Assembly (NCBI GenBank): GCA_913009315.1
Contig: CAJVZA010000005.1
Location: forward strand, 1-48,754
Source of the DNA: an uncultured Hippea sp.
GTDB lineage: Bacteria > Campylobacterota_A > Desulfurellia > JAADFJ01
DNA: 48,754 nt
Direction of reading: 5' to 3'
Each line of letters opens with the position of its first letter. Positions within the stretch are counted from its first letter, which is position 1. The notes under the pieces were generated by a model. That model searched no databases. It saw nothing but the letters and a program-made list of their open reading frames with translations, and was not told the origin of the DNA. The position numbers and the translations under genes are program-made. Below are positions 1-20,751 of this stretch, piece after piece.

Positions 1-2169
1 GTCTCGCAGTTCGCTGAGATTATACACCGGCTGATCTATTATTACCGAATTTTCTCCCGAAATTTCAATAATGCTGCTAAAGTTGACCAAAATTTCAAAA
101 CCGGTAGTCACGTTTGCCAGCTGTCTGTGGAAGTCCGAATTGGGTATTCCTTCTTTATTCAAACCTGATATTTTATAGAAGCGATTTTTTAGTTCAAGGA
201 ACTTTTCTCTGTCTATCTTTTCGCCTGCAAACGGCCCGCTTTTGACCGGTTCTTCAAACCATCTTTCAGGAACCATGTCGTCGTTGCTTGAAAGACCGAT
301 GCGGTAGTTTATCAATCGTTCCAGGCCTGTTATATTTTTGCCTATTTTATTTAGTTCTTCTACGGAAAATTTGAGGTTTGTAACGGCGGAAATTCCGTTT
401 GAAAAATCTTCATAATCTATGGTGCTGGGTGAGTTGAACAACTTTGTCGAGAATCTGCATAATCCGCTTGAATCGCCAACAGCATATAAATCTTCGCATC
501 TTCTGACGGCATATTCCTTTCCGTCATAACTGGTTGGATCGGCCGATACCGCCGCTTTATAGAGCCTTTTCTTATACTCGGAATCGCTGTTTATATGAGC
601 GTTTATCTCGAGAGTTGCCCTGTTTCTCAGATGGTCCATTCCGCGTGTTGCAACTGCGACGCCGAGGGCAAATGCCTTTAATATTCTGCAGTCATGAGGA
701 TCCGATTGAAACAGTCCCTTGATTGTCATTTTATATCTATCGGCTTCTTTCGGATATCTCTTTCTTTCGACTGCCCGGTTTGAATCTGCAAGTGTGTCTC
801 CGAAGCCTTCACGTTTTGCAAGCATAAAAAGAAGTTTTTCAACTGTATCATAGCTGCCCCAGCTGAGATCGATTCCGCCGGTATCTTTTTTGGTTATTAT
901 ACCGCGCTGATAAAGCTCCATTGCCCATGCAACAGCTCCTCCGGTACTTGAGGAATCAAGCCCTAAATCGTTTAATATATTGTTGAGCCGCAATACATGC
1001 TCGACTTTTTTTATGCCGATGTTGGGACCGAATTTTCCAAGTGTGACATATTCAGGTCCATCGCCTCTGTCATAGTTGTCGAAAACTCCGTTGTTGAGGA
1101 TTCCGTTATAACTTTTTTGATTCTCATGAGTGATTTCCGATTCTTTTTCGTCGGTACTTGCGTTGCCTGATACCCCTTTCATGGCATTTTTCCCCCAGCC
1201 TCCCTGTGCCTCCGGGGTCATATCATTCAGAGGTCTGCAGATAATCGGGCATTTATAGCAGCCGGCCATTTTTGTTCTGTATGTATCAATGTTGTCTGCA
1301 TCAAGAGTATCAAACCATGAGGTTTCCTGGTTGTTTTTTACTCCTAAGGCATGAATGATGCGGCTGGGTTTGTACAGAAACGGAGTGCCGACTTTTTTCA
1401 ATGCCTTTTTTGTGACGCTTGCGGAGAGAATTTTTTTGGCAAACTCTCTGTTTATTCGTATGATATCTTCTGAAGCCTTTTTGCGAGGCGGTTTTCCCAA
1501 AACAACTATTGCTTTGAGGTTGAGGGAGCCCATCTTGGCTCCGGTTCCTCCTCTTGCCCATAAAGCTTTGGGGCCGCCCATTATACCGCTGTTTAAAACA
1601 AGATTTTCGCCTGCTGATGTTATTCTTGCTGCAGCCATATCTCTGCCTTCAGTACATTTGAAATCGTTTTCTATCACCTGAGCAAATTCTATGTTGTTCA
1701 TTCCGTGATATTTTTCCGCGTCTGTAAATTTGACGGAATCATACGAAATCAGCAGCATACTCAGGTGTTCCGATTTTCCGTATAAAACAATATGATCATA
1801 TCCGTGCAGCTTAACAAATGAAGGAAAATAGTCTCCGCAGCTTGAGTCCATTATCGCATAGCTGTCAGGAGATATGCTTGTAAAATTTCCTCTTGAAGCA
1901 GATGGAACTATTCCGGTCAAAATTCCGGCTCCAAAAATTAGCGGAATTTCAGGATTAAGCGGATTCTTTGTTTCATCAAGAAGATTATAAAGTATGAACA
2001 TATTCGAACCGCGTCCGGAGAGAAAATTTTTGACAGCATGAATCGGAAGATATGCACTTTTTATGCATTTTCCTGCAAGATCGACGAAAAGAGTTTTGCC
2101 TTGATTAGGATATTCCGGTTCGTTGGAGAGTCTTTTTATAAACTCTTCGACCTTTCTGTCGATATTCAT
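1..2169 (-). CDS. aor: Aldehyde:ferredoxin oxidoreductase (tungsten AOR family) with MoaD/ThiS-like C-terminal tail, cut by window edge
   Basis: Reading from the ATG at 2169 gives 723 codons without a stop before base 1, so the 3' end is outside the window. The family oxidises aldehydes to acids with a tungstopterin and a [4Fe-4S] cluster, reducing ferredoxin. Visible motifs are ARGGTGAKMGSLNLKAI, the cluster cysteines in CYKCPIIC (about residue 305) and the later DSSGLCRF cysteine. The usual AOR C-terminus (PERWFEEPVKSGP and following) ends near residue 683. After it the frame continues with ILVNFSSIIEISGENS and YNLSELRD, which has the beta-grasp look of MoaD/ThiS sulfur carriers. The start has GAGGA at good spacing and lies 12 nt after iorB. 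It is the last visible gene of the 12-gene operon, where it could oxidise arylacetaldehydes or reduce acids. The AOR family is secure; the tail assignment is by eye. Confidence 0.9.
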   Translation of the reverse strand, partial: MNIDRKVEEFIKRLSNEPEYPNQGKTLFVDLAGKCIKSAYLPIHAVKNFLSGRGSNMFILYNLLDETKNPLNPEIPLIFGAGILTGIVPSASRGNFTSISPDSYAIMDSSCGDYFPSFVKLHGYDHIVLYGKSEHLSMLLISYDSVKFTDAEKYHGMNNIEFAQVIENDFKCTEGRDMAAARITSAGENLVLNSGIMGGPKALWARGGTGAKMGSLNLKAIVVLGKPPRKKASEDIIRINREFAKKILSASVTKKALKKVGTPFLYKPSRIIHALGVKNNQETSWFDTLDADNIDTYRTKMAGCYKCPIICRPLNDMTPEAQGGWGKNAMKGVSGNASTDEKESEITHENQKSYNGILNNGVFDNYDRGDGPEYVTLGKFGPNIGIKKVEHVLRLNNILNDLGLDSSSTGGAVAWAMELYQRGIITKKDTGGIDLSWGSYDTVEKLLFMLAKREGFGDTLADSNRAVERKRYPKEADRYKMTIKGLFQSDPHDCRILKAFALGVAVATRGMDHLRNRATLEINAHINSDSEYKKRLYKAAVSADPTSYDGKEYAVRRCEDLYAVGDSSGLCRFSTKLFNSPSTIDYEDFSNGISAVTNLKFSVEELNKIGKNITGLERLINYRIGLSSNDDMVPERWFEEPVKSGPFAGEKIDREKFLELKNRFYKISGLNKEGIPNSDFHRQLANVTTGFEILVNFSSIIEISGENSVIIDQPVYNLSELRD

Positions 2170-2181
2170 GCTTTTCCTCAC

Positions 2182-2763
2182 TCAGACTTCGTTTTTTGCA
2201 GTGCTGCCGTATTCATACGCCTTTATGTTCATCGCCAGAATCTTTTCCGGAATTATTTTTTGCATTGCCAATTTTATCTGCTGTTTCTCAAATGGCAAAA
2301 AATTTGATGCTGCTCCAAACATAACTACATTAAGCGATTTTATGCTTCCTGCTTTGAGGGCAAGTTCGGATGCATTCAGTTTATAGTATCTGATATGATT
2401 TTTTTGGTATATTTTATTAATAGAGTTCGGATAGGAAGCTTTTCCGATTGAGACAGGCATAGGATCAATTTTTCTATTGTTATATAAAATGATACCCGAA
2501 TTCTTCAGATAATCGACCATTCTGAATGCTTCAAGCGGTTCAGTTGCAATTATAAGATCCGCCTCTGCCTTGCCGATTAGCGGCGAATATACTTTATTTG
2601 CAAATTTAATACTGCAGACAACCGAACCTCCGCGCTGGCTCATGCCGTGTACCTCATTTTGTTTGACATCGAATCCGGCTTGAGCGGCAGCTTCGGCAAT
2701 AAGACTTGAAAGCAGCAGGACGCCTTGTCCGCCAACACCGGCTACAAGAATATTTTTATCCAT
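2182..2763 (-). CDS. iorB: Indolepyruvate:ferredoxin oxidoreductase, beta subunit
   Basis: This 193-residue protein matches the POR-gamma/IorB fold in length and in the N-terminal NILVAGVGGQGVLLLSSLIA segment, followed by NEVHGMSQRGGSVVCSIKF. Together with IorA it converts aryl-2-oxo acids (indolepyruvate, phenylpyruvate, 4-hydroxyphenylpyruvate) and CoA to arylacetyl-CoA and CO2, reducing ferredoxin in the cytoplasm. Its start overlaps the end of iorA by 8 nt, as expected for subunits made in step. The pairing with iorA makes the call firm; the true substrate cannot be read from sequence and may include branched-chain oxo acids. Confidence 0.93.
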   Translation of the reverse strand: MDKNILVAGVGGQGVLLLSSLIAEAAAQAGFDVKQNEVHGMSQRGGSVVCSIKFANKVYSPLIGKAEADLIIATEPLEAFRMVDYLKNSGIILYNNRKIDPMPVSIGKASYPNSINKIYQKNHIRYYKLNASELALKAGSIKSLNVVMFGAASNFLPFEKQQIKLAMQKIIPEKILAMNIKAYEYGSTAKNEV

Positions 2764-4492
2764 CTATAACTCCTATAGCATCGAAATTGCACATCTGCTC
2801 ACAAACCGTACAGCCTGTACAGAGCGATTCATCGATGGTCACCTTTTTTGTATCGGGATGCCAGTTTAATGCCATGCAGGCGACGGAAAGGCATATTTTG
2901 CAGCCTGTGCATTTGTCAAGTTCTACACGCAGCGGTGTCAGCTTAATCTTGTATTTAAGAACGCAGGGATCTGTTGATATGGCAACCGATACTCCGGGCT
3001 TTTCTAACTCTGCGGTTAGTTTTTCTTCAGTATCTTTTAGATCGTAAGGGTCGAATTTTATGATATTTTTTACTCCGCTTGCTTCTGCGAGCTTTACAAT
3101 ATCGATTCTCGGAGCAGCCTGTCCGTTTATTTTAACGCCTGTACCGGGATTGGGCTGTCCTCCTGTCATTGCGGTTACTCTGTTGTCCTGAATTATAACC
3201 AGGATGTTGCTTCCGTTGTAAACAGCGTTTATCAGTCCGGTTACTCCTGAATGAAAAAATGTAGAATCGCCGATTATGGCTACAGGCTTGAACTGATCGC
3301 CGGTTTTTCTCACCTGACTCATTCCATGGGCAACTCCGATTGACGCTCCCATACAGATACAGCTGTGCATTGCTCCGAGAGGCGGCAGCGCTCCCAATGT
3401 ATAGCATCCGATATCTCCCGAGACGAATACACGCAATTTTTTTAGAATACGAAAAACTCCTCTGTGCGAACAGCCCGGACAGAGCGTGGGAGGCCTAAGC
3501 GGAACATCTGATTTTTCAAAGCTTTTTGTCGGGTTTTTGCCGAAACTCTGCCGTAAAATATTGGAAGAAAGTTCGCCAATTGAGGGTAAGCGATTTTTGC
3601 CGTAATCAATCTTTATACCAAATGCAGTAATTTCTTTTTCCAGAAACGGATCAAGTTCCTCGATTACGGCAAGCTTGTCAACCTTTTTTGCAAATTCTTT
3701 AATCATTTTTTTATTGAGCGGATAGGTAATACCGAGCTTTAAAACCGAAGCATCGGGAAAAGCTTCTTTCACATACTGAAAGCTTGCCCCGCCTGTAATG
3801 ATGCCCATGGAGTTGTCATTGTATTCAGCATAGTTGATATCGGATTCTCCTGCATACAAGGAAAGATCGTTAATCTTTTTTTCAACGAGAGGTCTTCTCA
3901 ATAATGCATTTGCCGGAAGCATCGTATATTTTTGCCAATTTTTTTCAAGAGGCCTCAGTCCCACATTTTTTCTCTCCTGTATTTCTGCGACACTTCTTGA
4001 ATGACTTATAACTGTTGTTGTTCTTACAAGAACCGGAGTATCAAATTTTTCGCTAATTTCAAAAGCAAGTTTTGTGAAGTTGAGACATTCTCCGCTGTCA
4101 GAGGGCTCAAGAACCGGTATTTTTGCAAACAATCCGTACCACCTGTTGTCCTGTTCGTTCTGTGATGAATGCATTCCCGGGTCATCGGCAGTCAATATGA
4201 CAATTCCTCCGTTTACTCCGGTGTAGGAGAGTGTGAAAAGTGCATCAGCGGCAACATTGAGTCCCACATGTTTCATAGTTACAAGCACGCGTGAGCCTGC
4301 AATAGATGCTCCTATGGCTGATTCGAGAGCAGTTTTTTCATTCGGTGCCCATTCGGTGTTTACCTCTTTATAATCTTTGATTGCTTCAAGCACCTCAGTG
4401 CTTGGCGTGCCCGGATAACCGGTTGCAAACAACGCACCGGCCTCGTAAGCACCTCTGGCAATTGCTTCGTTACCAAGTAAAAGTTTTTTCAT
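2756..4492 (-). CDS. iorA: Indolepyruvate:ferredoxin oxidoreductase, alpha subunit
   Basis: The 578-residue protein has the IorA order: an N-terminal pyrimidine-binding POR domain (LLGNEAIARGAYEAGALFATGYPGTPSTE), CPGCSHRGVF near residue 338, a thiamine-diphosphate region (GDIGCYTLG, then GDSTFFHSG and QDNRVTAMTGG), and two C-terminal [4Fe-4S] motifs, CTGCKIC and CTGCTVCEQMC. The length is normal for the family (about 580-620). It carries TPP and the ferredoxin-type clusters, while IorB completes the enzyme. It begins 12 nt after paaK ends, so arylacetyl-CoA production and arylacetate activation are linked in one transcript. The second member of the first ferredoxin motif is spaced irregularly (CTGCKICLSVAC), which is common in IorA. 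Confidence 0.95.
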   Translation of the reverse strand: MKKLLLGNEAIARGAYEAGALFATGYPGTPSTEVLEAIKDYKEVNTEWAPNEKTALESAIGASIAGSRVLVTMKHVGLNVAADALFTLSYTGVNGGIVILTADDPGMHSSQNEQDNRWYGLFAKIPVLEPSDSGECLNFTKLAFEISEKFDTPVLVRTTTVISHSRSVAEIQERKNVGLRPLEKNWQKYTMLPANALLRRPLVEKKINDLSLYAGESDINYAEYNDNSMGIITGGASFQYVKEAFPDASVLKLGITYPLNKKMIKEFAKKVDKLAVIEELDPFLEKEITAFGIKIDYGKNRLPSIGELSSNILRQSFGKNPTKSFEKSDVPLRPPTLCPGCSHRGVFRILKKLRVFVSGDIGCYTLGALPPLGAMHSCICMGASIGVAHGMSQVRKTGDQFKPVAIIGDSTFFHSGVTGLINAVYNGSNILVIIQDNRVTAMTGGQPNPGTGVKINGQAAPRIDIVKLAEASGVKNIIKFDPYDLKDTEEKLTAELEKPGVSVAISTDPCVLKYKIKLTPLRVELDKCTGCKICLSVACMALNWHPDTKKVTIDESLCTGCTVCEQMCNFDAIGVIDG

Positions 4493-4504
4493 TTAAAATC
4501 CTTA

Positions 4505-5851
4505 TTATATTACTCTATTGTCTATTACTCTTTTTGCTTTTCCCTCAAATCTTGGAAGAGTTTTGGGCATAAACAGTTTTACATCAGTGGTAACTCCGAT
4601 AAGATCTTTGATATCTTTCTTGAGGTTCTGTTTCAAAGCTTCTACCTTTTCGTGAGTCACGGCAAGCGCCTCGGTTCCGTCAGCCATAACTACAGTTCCG
4701 ATAGATCTGGCAAACTCATTTATTACCTCAACTTCAACGGTGAGAGTATCCAGCCGCTCAACTCTTTTGATGACGAGTTGATAATGACCTGCAAGAGAAC
4801 GGAATTTTGTTATCACATCCTCTATCTGGCTTGGAAATACGTTTACACCTCTTATAATCAGCATATCGTCACTTCTTCCGGTTATTCTTGTCATTTTTGT
4901 GAAGTTTCTGCCGCAGCTGCATTTGGTTGGTTTGCTTAAAACAGTTATATCTTTTGTTCTGTATCGTATCAAAGGAAATGCTTCTTTGGTTATTGTAGTG
5001 ATTACCAGTTCTCCTTTCGATCCGTACGGCAGCTGTTCTCCCGTTGCCGGATCAATAATTTCCGCAATAAAATGGTCATCGCTGATATGCATCCCATTCT
5101 TTTCTTCTATGCATTCAAATGAAACACCCGGCCCTATAATCTCGGAGAGGCCGTAGAGATTTATCGCATCTATGGAGAGTTTTTCTTCAATCTCCTTTCT
5201 CATTCCTTCGCTCCAGGGTTCTGCTCCAAGTATAGCTACTCTGAGCGGCAATTTTGCAAAATCAACTCCCGCTTCTCTTCCAATATCATAAAGATATAGA
5301 GCAAACGACGGGGTGCATGTTAAACAGTTGGAACCGAAATCTTCCAAAAGCTGAATCTGTTTTTTTGTATTTCCGCCTGATATCGGAACAACAGCCGCTC
5401 CAAGTTCTTCAGCTCCGTAATGCGCTCCCAATCCTCCCGTAAAAAGGCCGTATCCGTAAGCATTCTGGACGATATCGTTTTTAGTTACTCCGGCTGCCGC
5501 AAATACTCTTGCCATTATTATCGACCATGTTTTTATATCATTTTTTGTATATCCGCATACGGTAGGCTTACCTGTTGTGCCGCTTGATGCATGAATTCTT
5601 ACAATTTTTTCTATCGGAACGGTAAACATTCCGTAAGGATAATTGTCTCTCAAATCCTGTTTAACGGTGAACGGCAGTTTTGCAAGATCTTCAAGCGATT
5701 TGATATCTTCCGGTTTAATACCTTTTTTATCAAACGATTTTTTATAAAAAGTAACATTATCATATACATTTCTGACAGTTTTCTGCAGTCTTTCAAGTTG
5801 AAGCTTTTTTAACTTCTCCCCGCCAAGCAGTTCGTTTTCATCAAAAATCAT
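4505..5851 (-). CDS. paaK: Phenylacetate-CoA ligase (PaaK family)
   Basis: A 448-residue adenylate-forming enzyme of normal PaaK length. The ATP/P-loop motif [14 protein letters not shown] is at residues 89-102, [15 protein letters not shown] marks the adenylate-binding core, and the C-terminal lid contains [22 protein letters not shown]. The family forms phenylacetyl-CoA (or a related aryl-CoA) from acid, ATP and CoA. No aerobic paaABCDE ring-epoxidase genes are present, so an anaerobic role is likely: recovering arylacetate from the AOR, or working with IorAB in either direction. The ATG has a GGGGGAG ribosome site. It sits 15 nt after the 3-hydroxyacyl-CoA dehydrogenase gene. Confidence 0.93.
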
Positions 5852-5866
5852 TCACTCCCCCTTATT

Positions 5867-6721
5867 TTAATCTTTCTTGCTGTAATCGTAAAATCCTTTT
5901 CCGGTTTTTCTGCCGAGCCATCCTGCCTGTACCATTTTCTGCATAACATTGGGCGGCAGAAATTTCTTGTCTTTGGTTTCGTCATATAGTATGTTTCCTA
6001 CAAAATAAGCAATATCCACACCTGTGAAATCCATCAGCTCAAGAGGTCCCATAGGGACTCCGGCTCCAAGTTTCATTGCAGTGTCTATCTGTTCGGGTGA
6101 GGCTATTTCGGCATCATATACCCTTGCTGCTTCAAGCATGTAAGGAACCAGTATTCTATTGACTATAAATCCGGGAGTGTCTTTGCATACAACAGCGGTT
6201 TTTCCCATAATTTCTGCCATACTTTTTGCAGCCTCAACGGTTTTGCTTGCCGTCTGAAGCGCCGGAATAATCTCAACAAGCTTCATCATGGGAACAGGAT
6301 TAAAAAAGTGCATTCCAACGAAATTCGAGCTTCTTCCGCTTGCTTTTGCAAGTGCTGTCATAGAGAGACTTGATGTGTTGGATGCAAAAGGAACGGTTTC
6401 CGGAACAATAGCATTGATTTTTTTGTAAAGCTCTGCTTTTATTTTTATATCCTCAAAAATGGCTTCAAATACAAAATCTGCATTCGATGCTCTTTCGGGA
6501 TCGGTTGCAAACTCAATTCTGCCGATTATTTCATTGGCGGATTCTTTTAGTCGTCCTTTTTTCTCAAAACGCGCAAGACTTTTTTCAATAATTTTTTTGC
6601 CTCTGTCAACTGATGAACGTTCATTGTCAATTGCAACAACCTGCAGCCCATTTGTCGCAGCAGTCTGAATAATTCCACTTCCCATACTACCGGTTCCGAA
6701 CACAGCAATTTTTTTAAACAT
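5867..6721 (-). CDS. 3-hydroxyacyl-CoA dehydrogenase (3-hydroxybutyryl-CoA dehydrogenase type)
   Basis: This 284-residue protein has the N-terminal NAD-binding GTGSMGSG (residues 9-16), the central MHFFNPVPMMKLVEI active-site segment with the catalytic His, and the C-terminal MGPLELMDFTGVDI dimerisation helix. It is the size of monofunctional Hbd/PaaH, not of the FadB fusion. It oxidises (S)-3-hydroxyacyl-CoA to 3-oxoacyl-CoA with NAD+ in the cytoplasm. It follows the enoyl-CoA hydratase gene by 8 nt, and a thiolase lies upstream in the same operon, so the three give a full lower beta-oxidation segment. The chain length or aromatic preference is unknown. Confidence 0.94.
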   Translation of the reverse strand: MFKKIAVFGTGSMGSGIIQTAATNGLQVVAIDNERSSVDRGKKIIEKSLARFEKKGRLKESANEIIGRIEFATDPERASNADFVFEAIFEDIKIKAELYKKINAIVPETVPFASNTSSLSMTALAKASGRSSNFVGMHFFNPVPMMKLVEIIPALQTASKTVEAAKSMAEIMGKTAVVCKDTPGFIVNRILVPYMLEAARVYDAEIASPEQIDTAMKLGAGVPMGPLELMDFTGVDIAYFVGNILYDETKDKKFLPPNVMQKMVQAGWLGRKTGKGFYDYSKKD

Positions 6722-6729
6722 TTCTCCTC

Positions 6730-7509
6730 CTATCTTCCTTTAAAATTAGGTTTTCTTTTTTCTATGAAGCTTGAAAGTCCTTCTTTTGCATCTTCAGTCG
6801 AAAATGCTCCCAAAAACGCCTTCAATTCCACATCAAGCCCCTTTTCAATCGGCCTGTCAACTCCCTGCAATATTGCAGCTTTTGCAAACTCTTTTGCTCT
6901 TATAGCACCTTTTGCAATTTTTGATGCAAAATTATATACGAAATCATCGAAATTCTCATCTTCCGATATTTCATCTAATATTTCCATGTTAAGAGCCTCT
7001 TTCGCAGTTATGCTTCGACCTGCAGCTATCATCTTAAATGCGTTATGTGCGCCTATTAAGCGGGAAAGACGCTGAGTTCCTCCTGCTCCGGGTATAATAC
7101 CCAATGTTGTTTCAGGAAGGCCTAAGACATATTTTCCTTCTGCAGCTATTCTGTAATCGCATGCAAGCGCAAGCTCGAATCCTCCTCCGAGTGCAAAGCC
7201 GTTTATGGCGGCAATTGTCAATTTTCTCGATTGAGCGATTTTGTTGAAGCTGTTTTGAAAAAATCGGGTTGTCTCTTCCGATTCGGATCTGTTGAATTTC
7301 AGAATCATATCGATATCTGCTCCGGCGGCAAAGAACTTCGGTAAACTGCTTGATATAACGATAACATCACATCTGTTATCGTTGGAGAGTCCATCGAAAC
7401 GATTTAATATTTCTTCAACAAACTGTCTGTTGATTGCGTTTGCCGGAGCTCTGTCAAGAATCAGATATCCGATATTGCCATTTAATTTTACATCAGTCCA
7501 GTTATTCAT
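6730..7509 (-). CDS. Enoyl-CoA hydratase (crotonase family)
   Basis: A 259-residue crotonase-fold enzyme with the oxyanion-hole segments FFAAGADID (about residue 60) and GFALGGGFELALACD (about 105), plus ETTLGIIPGAGGTQRL, which carries the second catalytic-acid region. The family hydrates trans-2-enoyl-CoA to (S)-3-hydroxyacyl-CoA. The start overlaps the stop of the 2-hydroxyacyl-CoA dehydratase subunit by 4 nt, which ties it to the product of that enzyme: an enoyl-CoA made by dehydration would pass directly to this hydratase. A dienoyl-CoA hydratase role cannot be excluded. Confidence 0.93.
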   Translation of the reverse strand: MNNWTDVKLNGNIGYLILDRAPANAINRQFVEEILNRFDGLSNDNRCDVIVISSSLPKFFAAGADIDMILKFNRSESEETTRFFQNSFNKIAQSRKLTIAAINGFALGGGFELALACDYRIAAEGKYVLGLPETTLGIIPGAGGTQRLSRLIGAHNAFKMIAAGRSITAKEALNMEILDEISEDENFDDFVYNFASKIAKGAIRAKEFAKAAILQGVDRPIEKGLDVELKAFLGAFSTEDAKEGLSSFIEKRKPNFKGR

Positions 7510-8699
7510 CTTTCCCCCATTTCTGCTAATGTTTCTATTCTTTCTATTATGCTGTCTCTATTGTAATCCCTTGTATCGTTGTGATCTGCCTCTATTATAA
7601 CAGAAGGAATGCCTTTTTGCCTCAATTGATCGGCGAGTTGAACCTGAATCAGAGAATAGCTTTTGCAGCTTCTATCGGCGTGAAACACAACTCCGTCAAC
7701 ATCGTATCTGCCGATTATATCAAGCAGAACCGAAAATCGTTTTTTGATATGAACATTGAGAAATCCGCCTCCTGTATAGTAAGCCAAACCTTTTATCGGA
7801 TTATCAAGTGCAACTTCACCCATGAATTTATCACCCCATGCCTGAGTGTATGTATCGGTTACAAAATTTATTCCTTTTTTTGCAAGTTCATCAAAAAGTC
7901 TGAGATCATGCCATATCGGAAGATTGTCCCACAAAAAACGATGCTTTTCTTCTGCTACCGGATATTCTCCGGACTTTATCCGTTCTTTTGTTTCCCTGTA
8001 CAGCATTTTCAGATGTTCCAGATATTGTTCCGTTCCGCGCAGCGCTACCATTGGAAACATATGCGTAAACAGATCGGCTCCGGTTAAGGGCGACGGATGA
8101 TTAGTTCTGAGTTCCATAGTCTGGCGCCATAACCGTTTTCCTTCGTTTGAAATTTTTACAACCTTTTTGAGGCGATTCAGATCAAACTTTTTCCCCGTTT
8201 CAGCTTCAAGAAACCGAATCATTCGTCTGGTTTCGCTTATCTGATAGGCAAGATGACTGCCGGTTGATTCATATTCAACCATTGGAGAATCAAAAAGAAA
8301 ACAGGAAGCATGGGTTGCCTTTTCGATAAGTCTCCACCATGAAAGTACTGTGACGCATGAATTGCTCGTTTCGACAAGAACAGTCGGTTCGGGGAGCTTG
8401 CCGAGCGGTCCTTCTTTTGAAATTAAGCTTCCGTAGGTGCTCCTCAAATATGAGCATGTGTGCTTGCTTATACCGTCGGCTTCGGCGAATTTTGAATATT
8501 TAACCGCTTCTTTTCTTGCTCCGAGCATTGCGCCGTAGTTTTCCGTATAAAACGGAAAGATATCCATAGCATAAAAAATTTCGCACGGAATTCCAACATT
8601 TACCCATGCTATAGGTTTGCCTGATTCCGCGCTTTTCTTCAGGTCGCCGTAGTATCCTGAAATCAGTTTTTTAAGGTTTCCGGTGGCTTGCAATCTCAT
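7506..8699 (-). CDS. 2-hydroxyacyl-CoA dehydratase subunit (HgdB/FldB/BcrB family), first of pair
   Basis: A 397-residue D-component family protein. The family dehydrates (R)-2-hydroxyacyl-CoA by a ketyl-radical route, or in the Bcr branch reduces benzoyl-CoA. Three cysteines are where the family ligates its [4Fe-4S] cluster: C82 in KHTCSYLRSTYG, C115 in ETSNSCVTVLSWW and C345 in HADRSCKSYSLIQ. The C-terminus has the usual IPSVIIEADHND ending. It overlaps the second subunit gene by 4 nt and the hydratase gene by 4 nt. The ATP-dependent activator (HgdC/BadFG type) that such enzymes need is not in the window. Dehydratase is favoured over ring reductase because BcrA/BcrD partners are also absent. 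Confidence 0.87.
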   Translation of the reverse strand: MRLQATGNLKKLISGYYGDLKKSAESGKPIAWVNVGIPCEIFYAMDIFPFYTENYGAMLGARKEAVKYSKFAEADGISKHTCSYLRSTYGSLISKEGPLGKLPEPTVLVETSNSCVTVLSWWRLIEKATHASCFLFDSPMVEYESTGSHLAYQISETRRMIRFLEAETGKKFDLNRLKKVVKISNEGKRLWRQTMELRTNHPSPLTGADLFTHMFPMVALRGTEQYLEHLKMLYRETKERIKSGEYPVAEEKHRFLWDNLPIWHDLRLFDELAKKGINFVTDTYTQAWGDKFMGEVALDNPIKGLAYYTGGGFLNVHIKKRFSVLLDIIGRYDVDGVVFHADRSCKSYSLIQVQLADQLRQKGIPSVIIEADHNDTRDYNRDSIIERIETLAEMGER

Positions 8700-9823
8700 A
8701 ATTCTTCTCCAATCTGCTCCGCAAATGCTTCAAGGCGCGTAAGAAATTGTCCTTCGGAGCTAACCCGGTAACCTCCTTCCAACCCTATAACGGGTATGCC
8801 TTCTGCCTGCAGTCTTTTTCTGAGTATTGGAAACTCGCATTCTTCCGAATCGCAGAACGTTACGAGATAAAATATTACTCCTTTCACGCCTGCTTCTTTG
8901 CAGTCTTTAATTAGTTCGTCTATTCTGAGATCGATATTACCTTTTGTGGAACATGGAATTTTGCTTAAATATCGTTTTGAAATCGCATGGTAGGGGCCTT
9001 CTTTTGTTTTGATAACAAGTTCTTTGAATGCCCTTGACCCGAACATAAGATCATCTGTCACCATTCTCATACCTGTTTTATCTACAATTTCAAAAAATTG
9101 AGTTGATTCAAGCATAATTCCGGATATTGCTACTTTTATACTGTTTTCTATAGATCGGTCGTCTGTTAATTCCGTCTGCTGCATCAATTGTTCCAGTTTC
9201 TGCGTGTATTCGCTGCTGTCCATAATTGTTGCAAGAGAAATAATGGAAAAGAAGTCTGCCGAATTTATAACAATTTTTCCCTTTTTGATGAGATCATAAA
9301 ATTTTAGAACAGCAAGGCGTTTTTTATTCGAAATTCTTATCGCTTCGGTCAGCATTTCTTCATCAATTTTTATGTTGAAATAGCCGGAAATATGATTTAC
9401 AAGTTTTTTTAGTTCACCGGATAGAAAATTTATCGATTCTACAGTCAATATGGTGGGGTAAGGTATAAAATGATAGAAACTGTCACCTGAATTTTCCTGC
9501 CAGATATCGGCTATTGCCCTGAGTGAATCGCAATATCTAGAAAAAATTACGCCTTTTAGAAAGGAAAGCGTTCCGTTTAAAAGCTGATCGAGAAAGTTTA
9601 TCGATACCGAACAGGCGAAACTTTCTATTTTGGAGCCCCCAACCGCAATTTGCCTATCATTTGGAGATATTCTGAGCGGATGCATACCGGCGGCGTATAT
9701 TATTTCTTCAGGAACATAGGTTTCAAAATAGCCCATAACCGGTTTGTCAATCTTTTTAAGATATTCCGGCAGATTTTTTCTTATAGTCCTGAATTCATTT
9801 AGTGCTTCGGATTCTTTAATCAA
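8696..9823 (-). CDS. 2-hydroxyacyl-CoA dehydratase subunit (HgdA/FldC/BcrC family), second of pair
   Basis: This 375-residue partner of the preceding family member is more diverged but keeps the layout: YVPEEIIYAAGMHPLR near the N-terminus, then C71 (ESFACSVS), C98 (FSRYCDSLR) and C324 (LVTFCDSEECEF), which match the three cluster-ligand positions. The end IPVIGLEGGYRVSSEGQ replaces the more usual E-x-D segment. The two subunits would form the heterodimer carrying one cluster each. Its gene follows the DUF35 gene with a 4-nt overlap and runs into the other subunit with a 4-nt overlap, so stoichiometric synthesis is likely. Confidence 0.85.
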   Translation of the reverse strand: MIKESEALNEFRTIRKNLPEYLKKIDKPVMGYFETYVPEEIIYAAGMHPLRISPNDRQIAVGGSKIESFACSVSINFLDQLLNGTLSFLKGVIFSRYCDSLRAIADIWQENSGDSFYHFIPYPTILTVESINFLSGELKKLVNHISGYFNIKIDEEMLTEAIRISNKKRLAVLKFYDLIKKGKIVINSADFFSIISLATIMDSSEYTQKLEQLMQQTELTDDRSIENSIKVAISGIMLESTQFFEIVDKTGMRMVTDDLMFGSRAFKELVIKTKEGPYHAISKRYLSKIPCSTKGNIDLRIDELIKDCKEAGVKGVIFYLVTFCDSEECEFPILRKRLQAEGIPVIGLEGGYRVSSEGQFLTRLEAFAEQIGEEL

Positions 9824-10296
9824 TTGTCCAGCTCAAATGCGAAATAAACTCTGTCTATGCTGATTTTGTCTCTTCCTATTTCGGCCGGTATGGGAGGAAC
9901 ATCGAATACCTTCAGCTTTACTTTGTCGCCCCTGTGAATATCGTCTATCGATTTGATGCCTACAATTTTTGAGAGTATGTCGAAGGAATCGGAAAGCTTT
10001 ATATATGCATGTATCAGCGGTTTTTCAAAACCTACCGGAACTCCGGCTTTTAATTCCGTAAAATATTCGACGGTTCCTTTTGTCGGCAGATCTATCCATT
10101 CCAATTCTTCGGATAAACATTCAGGGCAGAGGATTCTCGGCGGATAGCTTACTTTGCCGCATTTGATGCATTTTGTTGTAGTTAAACGTCCTTCTTTTAG
10201 ATATTCAAAAAATTTCCATATCTTTGTGAGCTGTTTGCCTTCCATCGGATATGTATCAAGTATAACCGAATAGAGGTTATTGAATTGATTTTCCAT
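9820..10296 (-). CDS. Zn-ribbon/OB-fold protein (DUF35 family), thiolase partner
   Basis: A 158-residue protein with a rubredoxin-like zinc ribbon, CIKCGKVSYPPRILCPEC (residues about 41-58), followed by an OB-fold segment beginning LEWIDLPTKGTVEYF. DUF35 proteins occur beside SCP-x type thiolases and acyl-CoA enzymes and, in cases such as BbsA/BbsB and archaeal HMG-CoA formation, bind the thiolase and help pass or bind CoA thioesters. The gene starts directly after the stop of the thiolase gene, which supports a complex between the two products. No catalytic residues of its own are expected. Confidence 0.9.
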   Translation of the reverse strand: MENQFNNLYSVILDTYPMEGKQLTKIWKFFEYLKEGRLTTTKCIKCGKVSYPPRILCPECLSEELEWIDLPTKGTVEYFTELKAGVPVGFEKPLIHAYIKLSDSFDILSKIVGIKSIDDIHRGDKVKLKVFDVPPIPAEIGRDKISIDRVYFAFELDN

Positions 10297-11463
10297 CTAA
10301 TCCCTCCCGTATATAAGAATAGTATGTGCAACTATTGCACCGCTGAAATTGTGAGTAAGACCATATTTTGCACCTTCAACCTGATGATTGGCATCACCTT
10401 TCAGCTGTTTTGCAATTTCTATTGCCTGCCTTATTCCGGTTCCTCCGAACGGATGACCGCAGCTCAGCAATCCGCCGTCAGTGTTGACGGCAACTTTGCC
10501 TCCGAAATCAGATAGTCCCTTTTCGGCAAAAATGCCTCCTTCGCCTTTTTCACAGAATCCGAGATCTTCATATTCTATCACTTCCGAAATCGTAAAACAG
10601 TCATGCGTTTGAGCGACATCTACATCGTCGGCTGTTATTCCGGCTTTTGAGTATGCGCGCGAAGCCGCAGTTTTGAGTGCATTCCATGTAGTCCAGTTTC
10701 CTCTGTTGGATATGCTGTTGCTTTCTGTTGCCTGAGCGGTGCCTATAATTTTTACAAGCGGTTTGTCCGTAAAATCTTTTGCTGCTTCGCCGGATGTCAA
10801 AATTACCGCTGCGGCACCGTCGGTGATGGGACAGCAATCGTATAATTTCAATGGGGCGGCAACCGGTTTTGCAGTCATAGCATCCTGGAGAGTTATTTCT
10901 TTTCTGAATTGACCTTTTGGATTATTTAATCCGTTTCTTCTGTTTTTTACACTTATAGCTGCAAGCTGTTCCTCTGTAGTTCCATACAAAGCCGCATGGC
11001 GCTGAAACACTATTGACAGTAAAGATGGAGGCAGACCTAATCCCTGGGCACCGTCCCAATCGTGGTCTACGCTGCCTAATTGGCTGTAAAATGTTTCCCA
11101 TCTTTGCGGCGTAAACAGTTTTTCGCCTCCAATCACCATTATTGTATTTGACAAGCCGCTCTTTATCATTCCTGCGGCAAGTATTATTGCCGAGCTTCCG
11201 CTTCCGCACAAAAGTTCCACTCGTGCACATACGGAACTTGTTTTGATACCGAGATATTCGGCAACCATCGGCGCAAGATGGGTTTGTCTCGACAGACGCT
11301 CCGAACATGCTGATGCAACAAGAATACCATCGATATCAGCCGGTTTTATATGAGGATTATCCTCAAAGCATGCTTTTCCGGCTTCCTGAAAAAGCTCAAT
11401 TAGTGTGGCGTCTCTATAGCCCCACTTGGATTGTCCTCCCGCTACTACACATGCATCTTTCAT
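10297..11463 (-). CDS. Thiolase, SCP-x/acetyl-CoA acetyltransferase type
   Basis: A 388-residue thiolase-fold enzyme. The nucleophilic cysteine is C86 in VELLCGSGSSA, HDCFTISEVIEYEDLGFC contains the family His, and GGLLSCGHPFGGTG carries the second Cys and His of the active site. The form is the SCP2-thiolase type that commonly works with DUF35 partners. It should cleave 3-oxoacyl-CoA with CoA to acyl-CoA plus acetyl-CoA (or the reverse). With the hydratase and dehydrogenase downstream it completes a beta-oxidation-like spiral. In benzylsuccinate degradation a comparable thiolase plus DUF35 pair releases benzoyl-CoA, so an aromatic substrate is possible here. Confidence 0.92.
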   Translation of the reverse strand: MKDACVVAGGQSKWGYRDATLIELFQEAGKACFEDNPHIKPADIDGILVASACSERLSRQTHLAPMVAEYLGIKTSSVCARVELLCGSGSSAIILAAGMIKSGLSNTIMVIGGEKLFTPQRWETFYSQLGSVDHDWDGAQGLGLPPSLLSIVFQRHAALYGTTEEQLAAISVKNRRNGLNNPKGQFRKEITLQDAMTAKPVAAPLKLYDCCPITDGAAAVILTSGEAAKDFTDKPLVKIIGTAQATESNSISNRGNWTTWNALKTAASRAYSKAGITADDVDVAQTHDCFTISEVIEYEDLGFCEKGEGGIFAEKGLSDFGGKVAVNTDGGLLSCGHPFGGTGIRQAIEIAKQLKGDANHQVEGAKYGLTHNFSGAIVAHTILIYGRD

Positions 11464-11476
11464 CTCTTCCTCCTGA

Positions 11477-12976
11477 TCATTTTGAAAACTCCTTTTTCGC
11501 CATTTCTCTTAATTTTCTTTTTAGAATCTTTCCCGTCGCATTTTTGGGTAGAGCTTCTGCAAATTTAATTTTCTTGGGTGCTTTAAAACGTGCCATTCTG
11601 CTTTTACAAAATTCTATAAGTTCGGCTTCTTCGACTGTTTTTCCCTCTTTCAGCACAACGTACGCCAATACCGATTCCTGATAGATCTTATCCGGCATTC
11701 CAACCACGGAACATTCCTGAATGCAATCGTTTTGATAGAGCGTTTCTTCGACCTCACGAGGCGAAATATTTTCACCGCCTGAATTTATCATATCTTTTGT
11801 TCTATCTACAATGTACAGATAGCCTTCATCATCCAGTTTTCCTACATCACCTGTATGAAGCCAACCGTTTTTCAAAGTTTCTTCAGTTTCTTTTTGTTTT
11901 CCAAAATAGCCGAGCATAACATTCGGTCCCTGAATCAGAATTTCACCTTCTTCTCCGGTTTTCAGGGGATTATCGTTTTTGTCGGCAACTCTTATCTCCA
12001 CATTTTCTATGGGAGTTCCGACTGATCCTGCTTTATGTCTGAATTCATGATTATATGTTGCAAACGGTGTTGATTCTGTCAATCCGTATGCTTCGTTCAT
12101 GTCCATTCCTGTTTGTTTTTTCCATTCTTTAATCACCTCGACCGGCAGGCTTGCTGCTGCCGAAAAAGAGTATGTCAGCGATTTTAAATATTCTTTGATG
12201 CCGGGCGTATTAAGAAGCATAATATAGATTGTGGGAACAGCATAAAACCGTGTTACCTTATGTTGTTTTGTAAGCTCCAGGATATCATCCTGCTCATATT
12301 TTCTATGCAAAACCAAGGTTGCGCCGCAGTTTATGGCGCTATTGGCAATAAAATTCTGGGCAAATGAGTGAAAAAGCGGCAAAAAGCAGATTAGCCGATC
12401 GTCCGGAGAAATTTTTGTATGATGAATGGCGGCATAGCTGTTGCTTATAATATTGCCATGAGAAAGAATCACACCCTTGGGTTCTCCTGTTGTACCGGAC
12501 GTATATATAATGGAAGCAGGATTCTCAGGTGAGCGGTAAACGGTGTCAAAAAGATCGTTAGAATCGATTTTATCAATATTGTCCTCTAATTTATCCCCAA
12601 ATGAAACAATTTTCTGAAGATAAGTTTCACTTTTGGCAGGAAGTTGTTCGATGAGATCGTCTTCTACAAAAACTATTTTTGTGCGTGAATCATTGAGTAT
12701 ATATTTTACCTCTTTTTTTTGAAGCAGAAAATTTATTGATACTGCAACCCCGCCCATCTTTTGTATGCCGTAGTAGGCATATAAAAATCGTTCATTATTT
12801 GCTGAGAAGATAGCTACATTGTCGCCGGCCTTGATACCGTTTTTTATTAGATAATTTGCAATTCTGTTTGAAAAGGAATACAGCTTGGAATAGCTGAAGC
12901 TGCCGGTTTTAGTTATTATAGCGGGTTTATTCCTATTAAATCTAAAATTTCTGTCTATAAATGACGCATTATTCAT
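11477..12976 (-). CDS. Acyl-CoA synthetase (AMP-forming, long-chain/FadD-like)
   Basis: The 499-residue protein is a class I adenylate-forming ligase: IIYTSGTTGEPKGVILSHGN is the phosphate-binding motif, AYGLTESTP the adenine motif, GWLHTGDVGKLDDEGYL and VDRTKDMINSGGENISPREVE the hinge, and PKNATGKILKRKL contains the catalytic lysine of the lid. It activates a carboxylic acid to its CoA thioester. It is separate from paaK in the same operon, so the operon has two ligases with presumably different acids, for example a 2-hydroxy acid for the dehydratase versus an arylacetate. The start overlaps the reductase gene by 4 nt. The chain-length class is not safely readable. Confidence 0.92.
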   Translation of the reverse strand: MNNASFIDRNFRFNRNKPAIITKTGSFSYSKLYSFSNRIANYLIKNGIKAGDNVAIFSANNERFLYAYYGIQKMGGVAVSINFLLQKKEVKYILNDSRTKIVFVEDDLIEQLPAKSETYLQKIVSFGDKLEDNIDKIDSNDLFDTVYRSPENPASIIYTSGTTGEPKGVILSHGNIISNSYAAIHHTKISPDDRLICFLPLFHSFAQNFIANSAINCGATLVLHRKYEQDDILELTKQHKVTRFYAVPTIYIMLLNTPGIKEYLKSLTYSFSAAASLPVEVIKEWKKQTGMDMNEAYGLTESTPFATYNHEFRHKAGSVGTPIENVEIRVADKNDNPLKTGEEGEILIQGPNVMLGYFGKQKETEETLKNGWLHTGDVGKLDDEGYLYIVDRTKDMINSGGENISPREVEETLYQNDCIQECSVVGMPDKIYQESVLAYVVLKEGKTVEEAELIEFCKSRMARFKAPKKIKFAEALPKNATGKILKRKLREMAKKEFSK

Positions 12977-13938
12977 CTGTTACGAGTCCCCCTTGCCTGC
13001 TTATTCCACAACATTTTTTGTTCAAGTGCTTTAATAATCAGAGTAATTGCATGATTATATGGCGTTTCTACCTTTAGCTGTTTTCCAATTTTTACGATAT
13101 ACCCGTTTAATGTATCGATTTCAGTTCTGCGTTCGGCTTCTATATCCTGCAGCATTGAAATTTTATTATCTTTTACTCCGGCCAGGGCTTTTAATGAAAA
13201 CTCTCCTGGGGATTTCAATTCCTCGAACTCAAGTCCCTTTTTTCTTGCTACCATTGCGGTTTCCTCTGCAAGAAGCTTTATAAGTTCTTTTGCGGGTTCG
13301 CATGCCAGGATTTTTTCACCGGTAAAACCGGTAAAACCGGCAACTGCGTTGCATGCCACATTTGCAATCAGCTTTCGCCAGATAGGAACTTCGATATTGC
13401 CTTCTATCAGCTTAACGGTAAAACCTGCCTGATTGAGAAAATCGATCATTTCTTTGAATGTAGCATCCGGTTTTCTTCCATCGAGGGTTCCAAGCCAAAC
13501 GCCTCCGATACCGCCTGTATAGCGTATATGACAGTCGTCCAGCGGCATGGCGCTGTGCGCAGTAACTCCGCCTACGACTTTTTCTTTTCCTACAATCTTT
13601 GCGATAGTCTCCAAATTGCCAAGGCCGTTTTGGACCGAAAGAACATAGCTGTTGCCGTTGATAATCTTTGCCGCGGTTTTTGCCGCTGCTTCCGTTGCAT
13701 AGCCTTTTACCGATATCTGGACAATATCGAACTTTTCAAGTTTTTCGGGTTCGGTAGTAGCCTTGACCCATTGATGTTTATACGAACCGTCCGGCATGTG
13801 CAGAGTTATGCCGTAATTATTGATTTTTGCAACCTTACTTTTATCGATATCAATGAGCGTTACATCACAGTCTGCTTCTTGTAAAAGGACACCGAATGTA
13901 GCTCCTAATGCACCTGATCCAACTATTGCTACTCTCAT
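12973..13938 (-). CDS. 2-dehydropantoate 2-reductase family (PanE/ApbA) oxidoreductase
   Basis: This 321-residue protein has the N-terminal NAD(P)-binding MRVAIVGSGALGATFG, the SVQNGLGN loop and the helix RKLIANVACNAVAGFTG, which includes the catalytic Lys and Asn of the PanE fold. The length is normal. Classical PanE makes pantoate for CoA. Several PanE-family members are instead (R)-2-hydroxyacid dehydrogenases reducing 2-oxo acids. Being the first gene of a catabolic operon, 4 nt overlapped with an acyl-CoA ligase and upstream of a 2-hydroxyacyl-CoA dehydratase, the second role is attractive here, but it is inference. The ATG has a GGGGGG ribosome site. Confidence 0.85.
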   Translation of the reverse strand: MRVAIVGSGALGATFGVLLQEADCDVTLIDIDKSKVAKINNYGITLHMPDGSYKHQWVKATTEPEKLEKFDIVQISVKGYATEAAAKTAAKIINGNSYVLSVQNGLGNLETIAKIVGKEKVVGGVTAHSAMPLDDCHIRYTGGIGGVWLGTLDGRKPDATFKEMIDFLNQAGFTVKLIEGNIEVPIWRKLIANVACNAVAGFTGFTGEKILACEPAKELIKLLAEETAMVARKKGLEFEELKSPGEFSLKALAGVKDNKISMLQDIEAERRTEIDTLNGYIVKIGKQLKVETPYNHAITLIIKALEQKMLWNKQARGTRNR

Positions 13939-14495: not shown

Positions 14496-14726
14496 ATGAA
14501 TGAACTTGATATAATACCGATTGAACCAAGGTTTAAACATTCGACAATTATGAAAACGTTTGATGAACTAAAAGAAGGTGATGCATTTATTCTGAAAAAT
14601 GATCATGACCCTGTTCCCCTTAAATACCAATTTGAGGCAGAGAAAAAGGGAGAATACAGCTGGGAATATATAGAAGAAGGGCCTGAAATATGGAAGGTCA
14701 AAATCGGAAGGACGGCATCGAAATGA
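14496..14726 (+). CDS. DUF2249 domain protein
   Basis: A 76-residue protein, LDIIPIEPRFKHSTIMKTFDEL then GDAFILKNDHDPVPLKYQFE, matches the small DUF2249 family, which is SirA/TusA-like in fold and is regularly found with Ric/YtfE, hemerythrin and NO-handling genes. The DHDP motif is a family hallmark. A ribosome site TGGAGG precedes the ATG. It overlaps ric by 4 nt (ATGA), so the two are made together. The biochemical function of DUF2249 is not established; nitrosative or oxidative stress is the likely setting. Confidence 0.88.
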   Translation: MNELDIIPIEPRFKHSTIMKTFDELKEGDAFILKNDHDPVPLKYQFEAEKKGEYSWEYIEEGPEIWKVKIGRTASK

Positions 14727-15436
14727 GCGGCGTGATAACGCCTGAGCAGTCGCTCGGAGAGATAGTTGGAAAATATCCTTTATTATCGGGATTTTTTGAA
14801 AAAAACGGAATAGACTACTGCTGCGGAGGAAAAGAGACATTAAGAGAAGCCGCCGCAGAACATAATATCGACGAAAACAATCTCATAAAGCAGCTCGAAA
14901 AGGAATTGGAAAGACTTGATGAGTTTCAGGCTGATGAGATCACTTGGGAAACGCGTCCGGCAAGCGAACTCGTTGATTATATAGTGGCAAGACATCATGG
15001 CTACATAAAACAGAATCTTCCCGATTCGGAAGCTCATCTGAGAAAAATACTGCAGGTGCACAGCGAGGTTAATCCTAATGAAATGATGGGCGATGAGAGG
15101 GCTATAGTGAGGCTTCCGAAACTGCTTACCGCTTTTCTTGAGATGAAAGAATCTATATCGAAGCATCTCAAAGAGGAAGAAGATGAGGTTTTTCCTGCTA
15201 TAAAGAATGATGCAGTTGACGAGTCTTTGAAGCGGAAAATTCTTAAGCTGCAGGAAGAGCATGAAGAACTTGGAGAAACTTTGGAGAAGATTAAACAATT
15301 GGCAACCGATTTTGTGCTGCCGGAATGGGCATGCCCGACATTTGCCGCTACATACAGACTGCTGAGCGGATTTCAAGCTGATATCCATAAACATATTCAT
15401 TTGGAAAATAACATCCTTTTTCCAAAATTGATTTAA
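14723..15436 (+). CDS. ric: Iron-sulfur cluster repair di-iron protein (Ric/YtfE/ScdA)
   Basis: The ATG at 14723 overlaps the preceding stop as ATGA and follows GGAAGGA, so it is preferred over an earlier in-frame start at 14690. The 237-residue protein has the ScdA_N (DUF542) domain with NGIDYCCGGKETL near the N-terminus, then a hemerythrin-like four-helix domain whose iron ligands are visible as ARHHGYIKQ, HSEVNP, HLKEEEDEVFP, EEHEELG and HKHIHLENNILFP. The family repairs Fe-S clusters damaged by NO or peroxide. In an anaerobe full of Fe-S enzymes like those of the operon next door this is a plausible protective function. A terminator follows at 15487. Confidence 0.93.
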   Translation: MSGVITPEQSLGEIVGKYPLLSGFFEKNGIDYCCGGKETLREAAAEHNIDENNLIKQLEKELERLDEFQADEITWETRPASELVDYIVARHHGYIKQNLPDSEAHLRKILQVHSEVNPNEMMGDERAIVRLPKLLTAFLEMKESISKHLKEEEDEVFPAIKNDAVDESLKRKILKLQEEHEELGETLEKIKQLATDFVLPEWACPTFAATYRLLSGFQADIHKHIHLENNILFPKLI

Positions 15437-20593: not shown

Positions 20594-20670
20594 CAGAGCC
20601 GGCTGGAAATGCTATTCATAATGTAATTTTATATGCGTCATAAACGATCAATATAGATAAAAAGCAGTTT

Positions 20671-20751
20671 GTGAAAGGAGGTGATAAAGGCATTATAGAG
20701 AGGATTTGGGATTTGTATTACAAATCAGAAAACTTGAAGGAGGTTTTATGA
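20671..20751 (+). CDS. Possible 26-residue leader peptide before the second octahaem cytochrome
   Basis: From GTG at 20671 a frame of 26 codons (MKGGDKGIIERIWDLYYKSE, then NLKEVL) ends at TGA overlapping the ATG of the next gene by 4 nt. It contains AAAGGAGGTGAT (20674-20685), a 12-base perfect complement to the usual 16S rRNA 3' end. No ATG, GTG or TTG follows that site at normal distance, though an in-frame ATT is 10 nt on. It may be a translated, coupling leader or simply 5' UTR. No strong ribosome site precedes the GTG itself. Confidence 0.3.
   Translation: MKGGDKGIIERIWDLYYKSENLKEVL

Follow-up and report, generated by a model that had tools for sequence, protein, structure and literature searches.

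Gene content and layout of the locus

The window analysed here is a stretch of 48,754 nucleotides from an uncultured Hippea sp., and its positions 1-13938 are filled by 12 open reading frames (ORFs), all on the minus strand. The Pfam, NCBIfam and PDB assignments agree with the gene identities given in the initial annotation. In the direction of transcription, the features are as follows:

14028-14001, minus: sigma-70-type promoter match, TTGACA-16-TATAAT (12/12 bases, TG before the second hexamer), about 60 bases upstream of the PanE gene
12973-13938, minus: PanE/ApbA-family reductase, proposed to convert arylpyruvate to (R)-aryl-lactate (TIGR00745, 221 bits, above the cut-off of 141)
11477-12976, minus: AMP-forming acyl-CoA ligase (ACS), proposed to activate aryl-lactate
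10297-11463, minus: SCP2-type thiolase, proposed benzoylacetyl-CoA thiolase (CGSGSSA at 86, HDCF at 287, CGHPFGGTG at 335)
9820-10296, minus: DUF35/ChsH2 zinc-ribbon partner of the thiolase (Cys43, 46, 57, 60)
8696-9823, minus: 2-hydroxyacyl-CoA dehydratase beta subunit, HadC-like
7506-8699, minus: 2-hydroxyacyl-CoA dehydratase alpha subunit, HadB-like, catalytic (profile scores, tree, sites)
6730-7509, minus: enoyl-CoA hydratase (ECH), proposed cinnamoyl-CoA hydratase
5867-6721, minus: 3-hydroxyacyl-CoA dehydrogenase (HBD), proposed to act on 3-hydroxy-3-phenylpropionyl-CoA
4505-5851, minus: PaaK, phenylacetate-CoA ligase family (TIGR02155, 601 bits, slightly below the cut-off of 646; nearest solved chains PaaK, 472 bits)
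2756-4492, minus: IorA, indolepyruvate/arylpyruvate:ferredoxin oxidoreductase alpha subunit (TIGR03336, 687 bits, above the cut-off of 651)
2182-2763, minus: IorB, beta subunit of the same enzyme (217.5 bits, below the cut-off of 230)
1-2181, minus: aldehyde:ferredoxin oxidoreductase (AOR), open at its 3' end, since base 1 of the window is the contig end

The gaps between these genes range from -8 to +15 bases. Together with the promoter match, this layout bears out the earlier description of a twelve-gene operon. The operon is real, and its genes are probably expressed as a single transcript.

Conservation and linkage to benzoyl-CoA genes

The initial annotation had proposed searching other genomes for the same gene order. 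This order is the same in two genomes of the same genus (G001 and G002), as far as their contigs extend, and the core gene set was found again in three further lineages, namely another uncultured genome (G099), two related Firmicutes genomes (G105 and G136) and an Archaeoglobus genome (G127), the genomes compared being draft or metagenome assemblies. In contrast, no thiolase or DUF35 match was found near 77 other HadB relatives. Set against these relatives, the kept order and the recurring core set demonstrate that the gene grouping is more than chance. In 390 genomes sampled from the class that includes a Desulfococcus bin (G108), the thiolase search gave one weaker match with DUF35 and no other query genes in the stretch taken, and no support for the operon was found among these sulfate reducers.

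On a different contig (C19), the genome of the operon has the genes of a BZD-type benzoyl-CoA pathway, namely bzdNOPQ, had, oah and a benzoate-CoA ligase gene. The test for this pathway found BzdNOPQ, Had and Oah all present: BzdO (645 bits, cut-off 449), BzdQ (414, cut-off 380), Had (445, cut-off 339) and Oah (559, cut-off 464), like the benzoate-CoA ligase (609, cut-off 375), exceed their cut-offs, BzdN (445) is slightly below its cut-off of 454, and BzdP was assigned by position and an activase model. The G099 counterpart of the operon comes immediately after dch/had/oah, all on one strand, and is followed by liv-type transporter genes; bzdPQ are located about 10 kb upstream, and BzdN and BzdO were not found in this assembly. 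In G105 and G136, ACS-HadC-HadB-HBD-ECH-IorA-IorB-thiolase-DUF35 are co-directional with bzdNOPQ, and neither PanE nor PaaK was seen in the cluster. IorAB, HBD-ECH, thiolase and DUF35 also adjoin bzdNOPQ in Archaeoglobus, where no HadBC was found beside the cluster and the HadB/HadC matches are BzdO/BzdN paralogues. The central pathway reading is supported because the operon shares loci with the BZD-type pathway in unrelated genomes. This recurrent linkage makes the route testable, and the neighbourhood points to an aryl substrate.

Conservation differs among the members. The thiolase is 68-70% identical to those of G099, G105 and G136 and 47% identical to that of Archaeoglobus, and PaaK and the PanE-family reductase share 59% and 51% identity, respectively, with their counterparts in G099. 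A second ApbA/PanE protein in the genome of the operon (contig C9, 3645-4589) rules out the operon enzyme as its only ketopantoate reductase, and the earlier view of it as the pathway reductase is retained. The AMP-forming ligase shares just 30-36% identity with the ligases of the G099 and G105/G136 operons and has a different position in G099, suggesting that the ligases were recruited independently. Conservation does not extend to AOR. It is absent downstream of IorB in G099 and has no match in the G105 and G136 stretches, so its earlier inclusion in the set did not hold. A BamB (class II) identity was not favoured for the AOR proteins, which scored 228 bits against AOR and 115 against BamB in the window, and 371 and 200 in G099.

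The dehydratase pair and its activator

The two HGD-D subunits are nearer to HadB/HadC than to ring reductases in both profile scores and the tree. The alpha subunit scored 223 bits against HadB and 107 against BzdO, and the beta subunit scored 178 against HadC, 147 against a double-cubane model and 104 against BzdN, the HadB/HadC scores being far below curated cut-offs that were set for the C. difficile-type enzyme. His131 is the acid/base residue of the class I benzoyl-CoA reductase alpha subunit (PMC11971306); in our alignment it is His only in the BzdO rows and Val in the window protein. The beta subunit is without three cysteines common to both BzdN sequences, which belong to the double-cubane cluster set. 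The tree, His131 and the cysteine pattern led us to reject a ring-reductase identity, and the initial reading of the pair as a dehydratase stands.

Compared with the (R)-2-hydroxyisocaproyl-CoA dehydratase HadBC (PDB 3o3m), the operon has both subunits, the three alpha-subunit cysteines (Cys82, Cys115 and Cys345) and Glu53, which corresponds to active-site Glu55 of HadB. However, the operon enzymes form a separate, well-supported clade, have no HadI-type activator encoded in the operon, and have lost HadB Ser37 in all six cases: it is Val in four, including Val35 of the window protein, and Ala in G105 and G136, whereas Ser37 was found in 86 of the 94 sequences compared. This loss could mean that the chemistry or the substrate of the dehydratase differs; our literature search on HadB Ser37 returned nothing useful. 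No dedicated activator gene is present in the operon. The activators found in the three genomes of the genus (the window genome G000, G001 and G002), whose assemblies are incomplete, are BzdP and BzdQ only, and therefore BzdPQ may serve the dehydratase as well as the ring reductase. If so, one activator would be shared by two branches of a single radical enzyme family, for which we know of no precedent. The initial annotation had overlooked both the missing dedicated activator and the replaced Ser37.

A candidate route to benzoyl-CoA and its alternatives

We consider it likely that a peripheral pathway leading to benzoyl-CoA via phenyllactyl-CoA and cinnamoyl-CoA is encoded by the operon, with substrates and a reaction order that we infer. 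The PanE-family enzyme would reduce phenylpyruvate to (R)-phenyllactate, the AMP-forming ligase would activate it, and the HadBC-type radical dehydratase, probably started by BzdP/BzdQ, would produce cinnamoyl-CoA. The hydratase and dehydrogenase would then yield benzoylacetyl-CoA, from which the SCP2-type thiolase and its DUF35 partner would release acetyl-CoA and benzoyl-CoA, the latter then feeding the genome's own BZD-type pathway. IorAB may interconvert phenylpyruvate and phenylacetyl-CoA, and PaaK may serve the entry or salvage of phenylacetate. Side-chain carbon would thus be retained as acetyl-CoA rather than lost as CO2. The initial annotation had proposed such a route from an aryl or branched 2-oxo acid through 2-hydroxyacyl-CoA, enoyl-CoA and 3-oxoacyl-CoA. 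The bzd co-location supports the sequence ending in benzoyl-CoA and acetyl-CoA, whereas having benzoyl-CoA genes as neighbours weakens the branched-chain alternative. Several observations count against the preferred route, including the Ser37 loss, the missing operon activator, the gaps in gene content noted above for G105/G136 (PanE, PaaK), G099 (BzdN/BzdO) and Archaeoglobus (HadBC), the draft state of the genomes, and a thiolase that scores higher with the archaeal acetoacetyl-CoA thiolase (209 bits) than it does with BbsB (149.5 bits). An oxidative IorAB would also divert phenylpyruvate.

Anaerobic breakdown of aromatic compounds converges on benzoyl-CoA, and the operon could account for a conversion left open in sulfate reducers grown in culture. 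Desulfococcus multivorans lacks PadB/PadEFGHI and yet uses phenylacetate, phenylpyruvate and phenyllactate for growth, its conversion of phenylacetate and phenylpyruvate to benzoyl-CoA has been called unclear, and on these two substrates it produces IorAB, a CoA ligase, Hbd, a hydratase and a thiolase (PMC5109826). These proteins resemble the operon set, as matched by description rather than sequence, but D. multivorans has a class II (bam) ring reductase and no dehydratase is named there (PMC5109826). The operon gives a gene-by-gene candidate for this type of conversion.

The direction of IorAB separates two other readings. An appreciable possibility, although not the favoured one, is that phenylpyruvate divides between the phenyllactyl-CoA arm to benzoyl-CoA and an oxidative arm, in which IorAB yields phenylacetyl-CoA and supplies the ring reductase with reduced ferredoxin, with PaaK for phenylacetate salvage only. 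Class I benzoyl-CoA reductases require low-potential electrons, and IorAB is kept where no PaaK was seen (G105, G136 and Archaeoglobus). However, phenylacetyl-CoA would be a dead end without another route; PadBCD and PadEFGHI are absent from the operon and were not found among the molybdopterin proteins of the genome, which are partly classified. More tentatively, PaaK could form phenylacetyl-CoA, which IorAB would carboxylate to phenylpyruvate with reduced ferredoxin, bringing phenylacetate into the same route. All conserved genes would then have one role each in a linear path from phenylacetate to benzoyl-CoA and acetyl-CoA. Methanogens use IOR in the carboxylating direction, with aryl-acetate activation, in aromatic amino acid synthesis, and PaaK and IorAB are neighbours in the window-type and G099 operons. 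This reading would also supply the missing D. multivorans step, where IorA3B3 is present on phenylacetate at a lower level; however, the authors assign IorAB the oxidative direction and consider its presence on phenylacetate possibly gratuitous (PMC5109826). Furthermore, two ATP-to-AMP activations and reduced ferredoxin would be spent before an ATP-dependent ring reductase, and PaaK was not seen in the G105/G136 cluster. It is doubtful, but conceivable, that strict anaerobes without Pad enzymes break down phenylacetate by adding CO2 first, through this line of reactions and with BzdPQ activating both dehydratase and ring reductase, as a module spread across bacteria and archaea. Of the oxidative phenylacetate branch first assigned to IorAB, PaaK and AOR, the AOR part falls away with its lack of conservation, and the IorAB/PaaK part is one of two readings.

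The remaining explanations fit less well. The substrates are unlikely to be branched-chain or other aliphatic 2-oxo acids, as in a leucine route from 2-hydroxyisocaproyl-CoA to isobutyryl-CoA and acetyl-CoA with bzd proximity reflecting a general catabolic island. PanE-family enzymes of lactococci do use branched 2-oxo acids, and among named models for the alpha subunit the HadB of leucine fermentation is closest, but adjacency to bzd/had/oah recurs in three other lineages, the PaaK family is specific for aryl substrates, and Ser37 is gone from every operon enzyme. It is highly unlikely that ECH, HBD and thiolase/DUF35 act in the lower part of the benzoyl-CoA pathway, from 3-hydroxypimelyl-CoA to glutaryl-CoA, beside unrelated HadBC and IorAB; they are near oah in G099, but the ring-cleavage clusters of the window genome and G099 already have a classical thiolase and an SDR dehydrogenase (59% and 55% identity between genomes), and HadBC, ACS, PanE, PaaK and IorAB, though kept together, would go unexplained. 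Least credible is a second aryl-CoA reductase in place of the dehydratase, for although BzdPQ are the sole activators found in G000, G001 and G002, G099 has no other HGD-D pair and Ser37 is lost, the catalytic His of BzdO is Val, the three BzdN cysteines are missing, and the tree and profile scores group the pair with dehydratases.

Returning to the phenyllactyl-CoA route, the conserved gene set looks like an undescribed path from phenylalanine-type compounds, phenylpyruvate or phenylacetate, to benzoyl-CoA, and it was compared with known systems. In the reductive Stickland branch of Clostridium sporogenes (FldABC/FldI), reduction of cinnamoyl-CoA, accompanied by CoA transfer, yields phenylpropionate. 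The likeness lies in phenyllactyl-CoA dehydration, which is performed there by a HadBC-type radical dehydratase (Dickert 2002, as cited in PMC13416013 and PMC11574389), whereas the operon adds an AMP-forming ligase, hydratase, dehydrogenase and thiolase near benzoyl-CoA genes. The Pad pathway (PadJ, PadBCD, PadEFGHI) also leads from phenylacetate to benzoyl-CoA with a PaaK/PadJ-type ligase, but by alpha-oxidation to phenylglyoxylate and decarboxylation (PMC5109826), steps of which the operon encodes none. The benzoylsuccinyl-CoA thiolase BbsAB (PDB 7pxp) shows that benzoyl-CoA-releasing DUF35-type thiolases exist. The operon proteins share its DUF35 plus SCP2-type architecture and, as proposed, its product, but a BbsAB identity was rejected with scores far below the cut-offs (45 against 250 for BbsA, 164 against 750 for BbsB). 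A similar reaction sequence has been proposed only hypothetically, in 2026, for benzene degradation by strain BzS1, through phenylpyruvate, 2-hydroxy-3-phenylpropanoyl-CoA, cinnamoyl-CoA and 3-oxo-3-phenylpropanoyl-CoA to benzoyl-CoA (PMC13416013). In that proposal phenylpyruvate comes from benzene, reduction follows CoA activation and no dehydratase is assigned; the operon offers dehydratase candidates for the cinnamoyl-CoA step of this on-paper route of anaerobic benzene degradation.

Organization and conservation of the operon

Contig CAJVZA010000005.1, which is entirely covered by the window, belongs to a 1.74 Mb draft genome that is 87.6% complete. Twelve ORFs with intergenic gaps of -8 to +15 bases occupy its first part, and the twelve gene identities proposed in the initial annotation were confirmed. 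The operon and its surroundings are as follows:

1-13938, minus strand: operon, in transcript order PanE, acyl-CoA ligase, thiolase, DUF35 protein, HadC-like protein, HadB-like protein, enoyl-CoA hydratase (ECH), 3-hydroxyacyl-CoA dehydrogenase (HBD), PaaK, IorA, IorB and AOR
14028-14001, minus strand: putative promoter, matching 12 of 12 consensus positions, a match that is alone no proof of function
14690-15436, plus strand: protein of the ScdA/hemerythrin type, transcribed away from the operon
16095-23210, plus strand: three ORFs without Pfam matches, bracketed by two large proteins that carry multihaem cytochrome motifs

The gene order was the same in two other genomes of the genus, G001 and G002, to the extent of their short contigs: that of G001 begins within the ligase gene and both stop within IorA, and the comparison covers the ligase to IorA in G001 and PanE to IorA in G002. 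At the end of the G001 contig, the IorA match (L041:8397-9475) is split into two parts that overlap, which is probably an assembly fault. The reading frame of AOR runs open into the contig end in the window, and AOR is not a conserved part of the operon; in the uncultured genome G099, a differing AOR (33% identical) is found, preceded by a small FeS protein.

HadB relatives were detected at no fewer than 79 loci when genome contigs were scanned. Among the matches listed, the thiolase/DUF35 set was found near HadB only at the G002 locus and at L057 (CALINM010000050.1, uncultured bacterium, genome G099). In addition, further families of the class have a ligase-HadC-HadB unit with a HadB about 36% identical (L044-L049), and no matches to the operon thiolase or DUF35 protein were found beside these units.

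Assignment of the dehydratase and its candidate activator

The two subunits resemble 2-hydroxyacyl-CoA dehydratases more than the class I benzoyl-CoA reductase BzdNO. The alpha subunit scored 223 bits with the HadB profile versus 107 with BzdO, and the beta subunit 178 with HadC versus 104 with BzdN, the HadB and HadC scores being far below the curated cut-offs. In a 93-row tree, in which the program flagged long branches, the four operon HadBs formed a 100/100 clade among the dehydratases, and BzdO was separate. His131 is the acid/base residue of BzdO (PMC11971306); the window protein has Val at this position, and the two BzdO rows are the only ones with His. Three cysteines common to both BzdN sequences are missing from the beta subunit, and the alpha subunit retains its three cysteines and Glu55. 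Position 37 of HadB is Ser in 86 of the 94 sequences compared, Val in four operon enzymes, and Ala in those of the Firmicutes genomes G105 and G136 (for G136, as read from its sequence). No catalytic role for Ser37 was found in the literature searched.

A PF01869 search of the window genome, G001 and G002 returned BzdP and BzdQ only. In G099, it returned BzdP/Q, one fused protein of 1360 residues and one weak match below the cut-off. As the assemblies are incomplete, we go no further than to infer that BzdPQ may be shared between the dehydratase and the ring reductase. BzdN and BzdO were not found in the G099 assembly, despite the presence of BzdP and BzdQ at L144:1642-3318.

Association with benzoyl-CoA genes and the proposed route

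Genes of benzoyl-CoA metabolism accompany the operon or its parts in several genomes, most of those compared being metagenome bins. Contig C19 of the window genome codes for BzdN, BzdO, BzdP, BzdQ, Had, a Dch-like hydratase, an SDR, a thiolase, Oah and a benzoate-CoA ligase. In G099, dch, had, oah and an amidohydrolase gene precede the operon on one strand, with bzdP/bzdQ about 10 kb upstream and liv-type transporter genes after the operon. Genome G105, a contig of which is titled Firmicutes bacterium UBA2598, and its class mate G136, both found by a thiolase search, carry ACS-HadC-HadB-HBD-ECH-IorA-IorB-thiolase-DUF35 co-directional with bzdNOPQ. The thiolases of these two genomes are 68-70% identical to that of the window, and their HadB/HadC and ligase no more than about 30-36%, suggesting that the module was kept and that some of its parts are distant or replaced. 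In Archaeoglobus (G127), IorAB, an HBD-ECH fusion, thiolase and DUF35 adjoin bzdNOPQ, and HadBC was not found in this stretch. Two clusters of genome G463 (L223 and L224) contain ACS, DUF35, a thiolase of 65-67% identity and HBD, with an ECH match in L224 only and no match to HadBC in either; they read as if the thiolase also serves phenylpropanoid-type beta-oxidation.

The gene neighbourhood suggests that the substrates of the operon are aryl compounds, and family chemistry suggests an order of reactions. Phenylpyruvate would be converted to phenyllactate, phenyllactyl-CoA and cinnamoyl-CoA, and the latter through 3-hydroxy-3-phenylpropionyl-CoA and benzoylacetyl-CoA to benzoyl-CoA and acetyl-CoA; the dehydrogenase would give back the reducing equivalents spent by PanE. 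IorAB might operate in either direction. If carboxylating, it would, together with PaaK, allow phenylacetate to enter the same line; where no PaaK was seen (the G105 and G136 clusters), a ferredoxin-reducing role for IorAB is equally likely.

No described operon of this kind was found in the literature (open-licence papers). PadB and PadEFGHI are absent from Desulfococcus multivorans, which can use phenyllactate for growth and on phenylacetate or phenylpyruvate forms IorAB, a ligase, Hbd, a hydratase and a thiolase; its path to benzoyl-CoA was termed unclear (PMC5109826). In work on a benzene degrader published in 2026, a very similar sequence of steps was presented as a hypothesis, with the dehydratase unassigned (PMC13416013).

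Possible respiratory genes

The plus-strand cluster at 16095-23210 possibly serves electron export. A check of the window genome for Pad genes covered part of its molybdopterin protein matches; among these, several proteins resemble nitrate reductase or formate dehydrogenase, one on contig C6 had no clear assignment, and none was recognised as a Pad enzyme. Positions 4211-6358 of contig C59 code for a NarG-like nitrate reductase, which scored 875 bits in a match of partial length and gives a hint of nitrate respiration.
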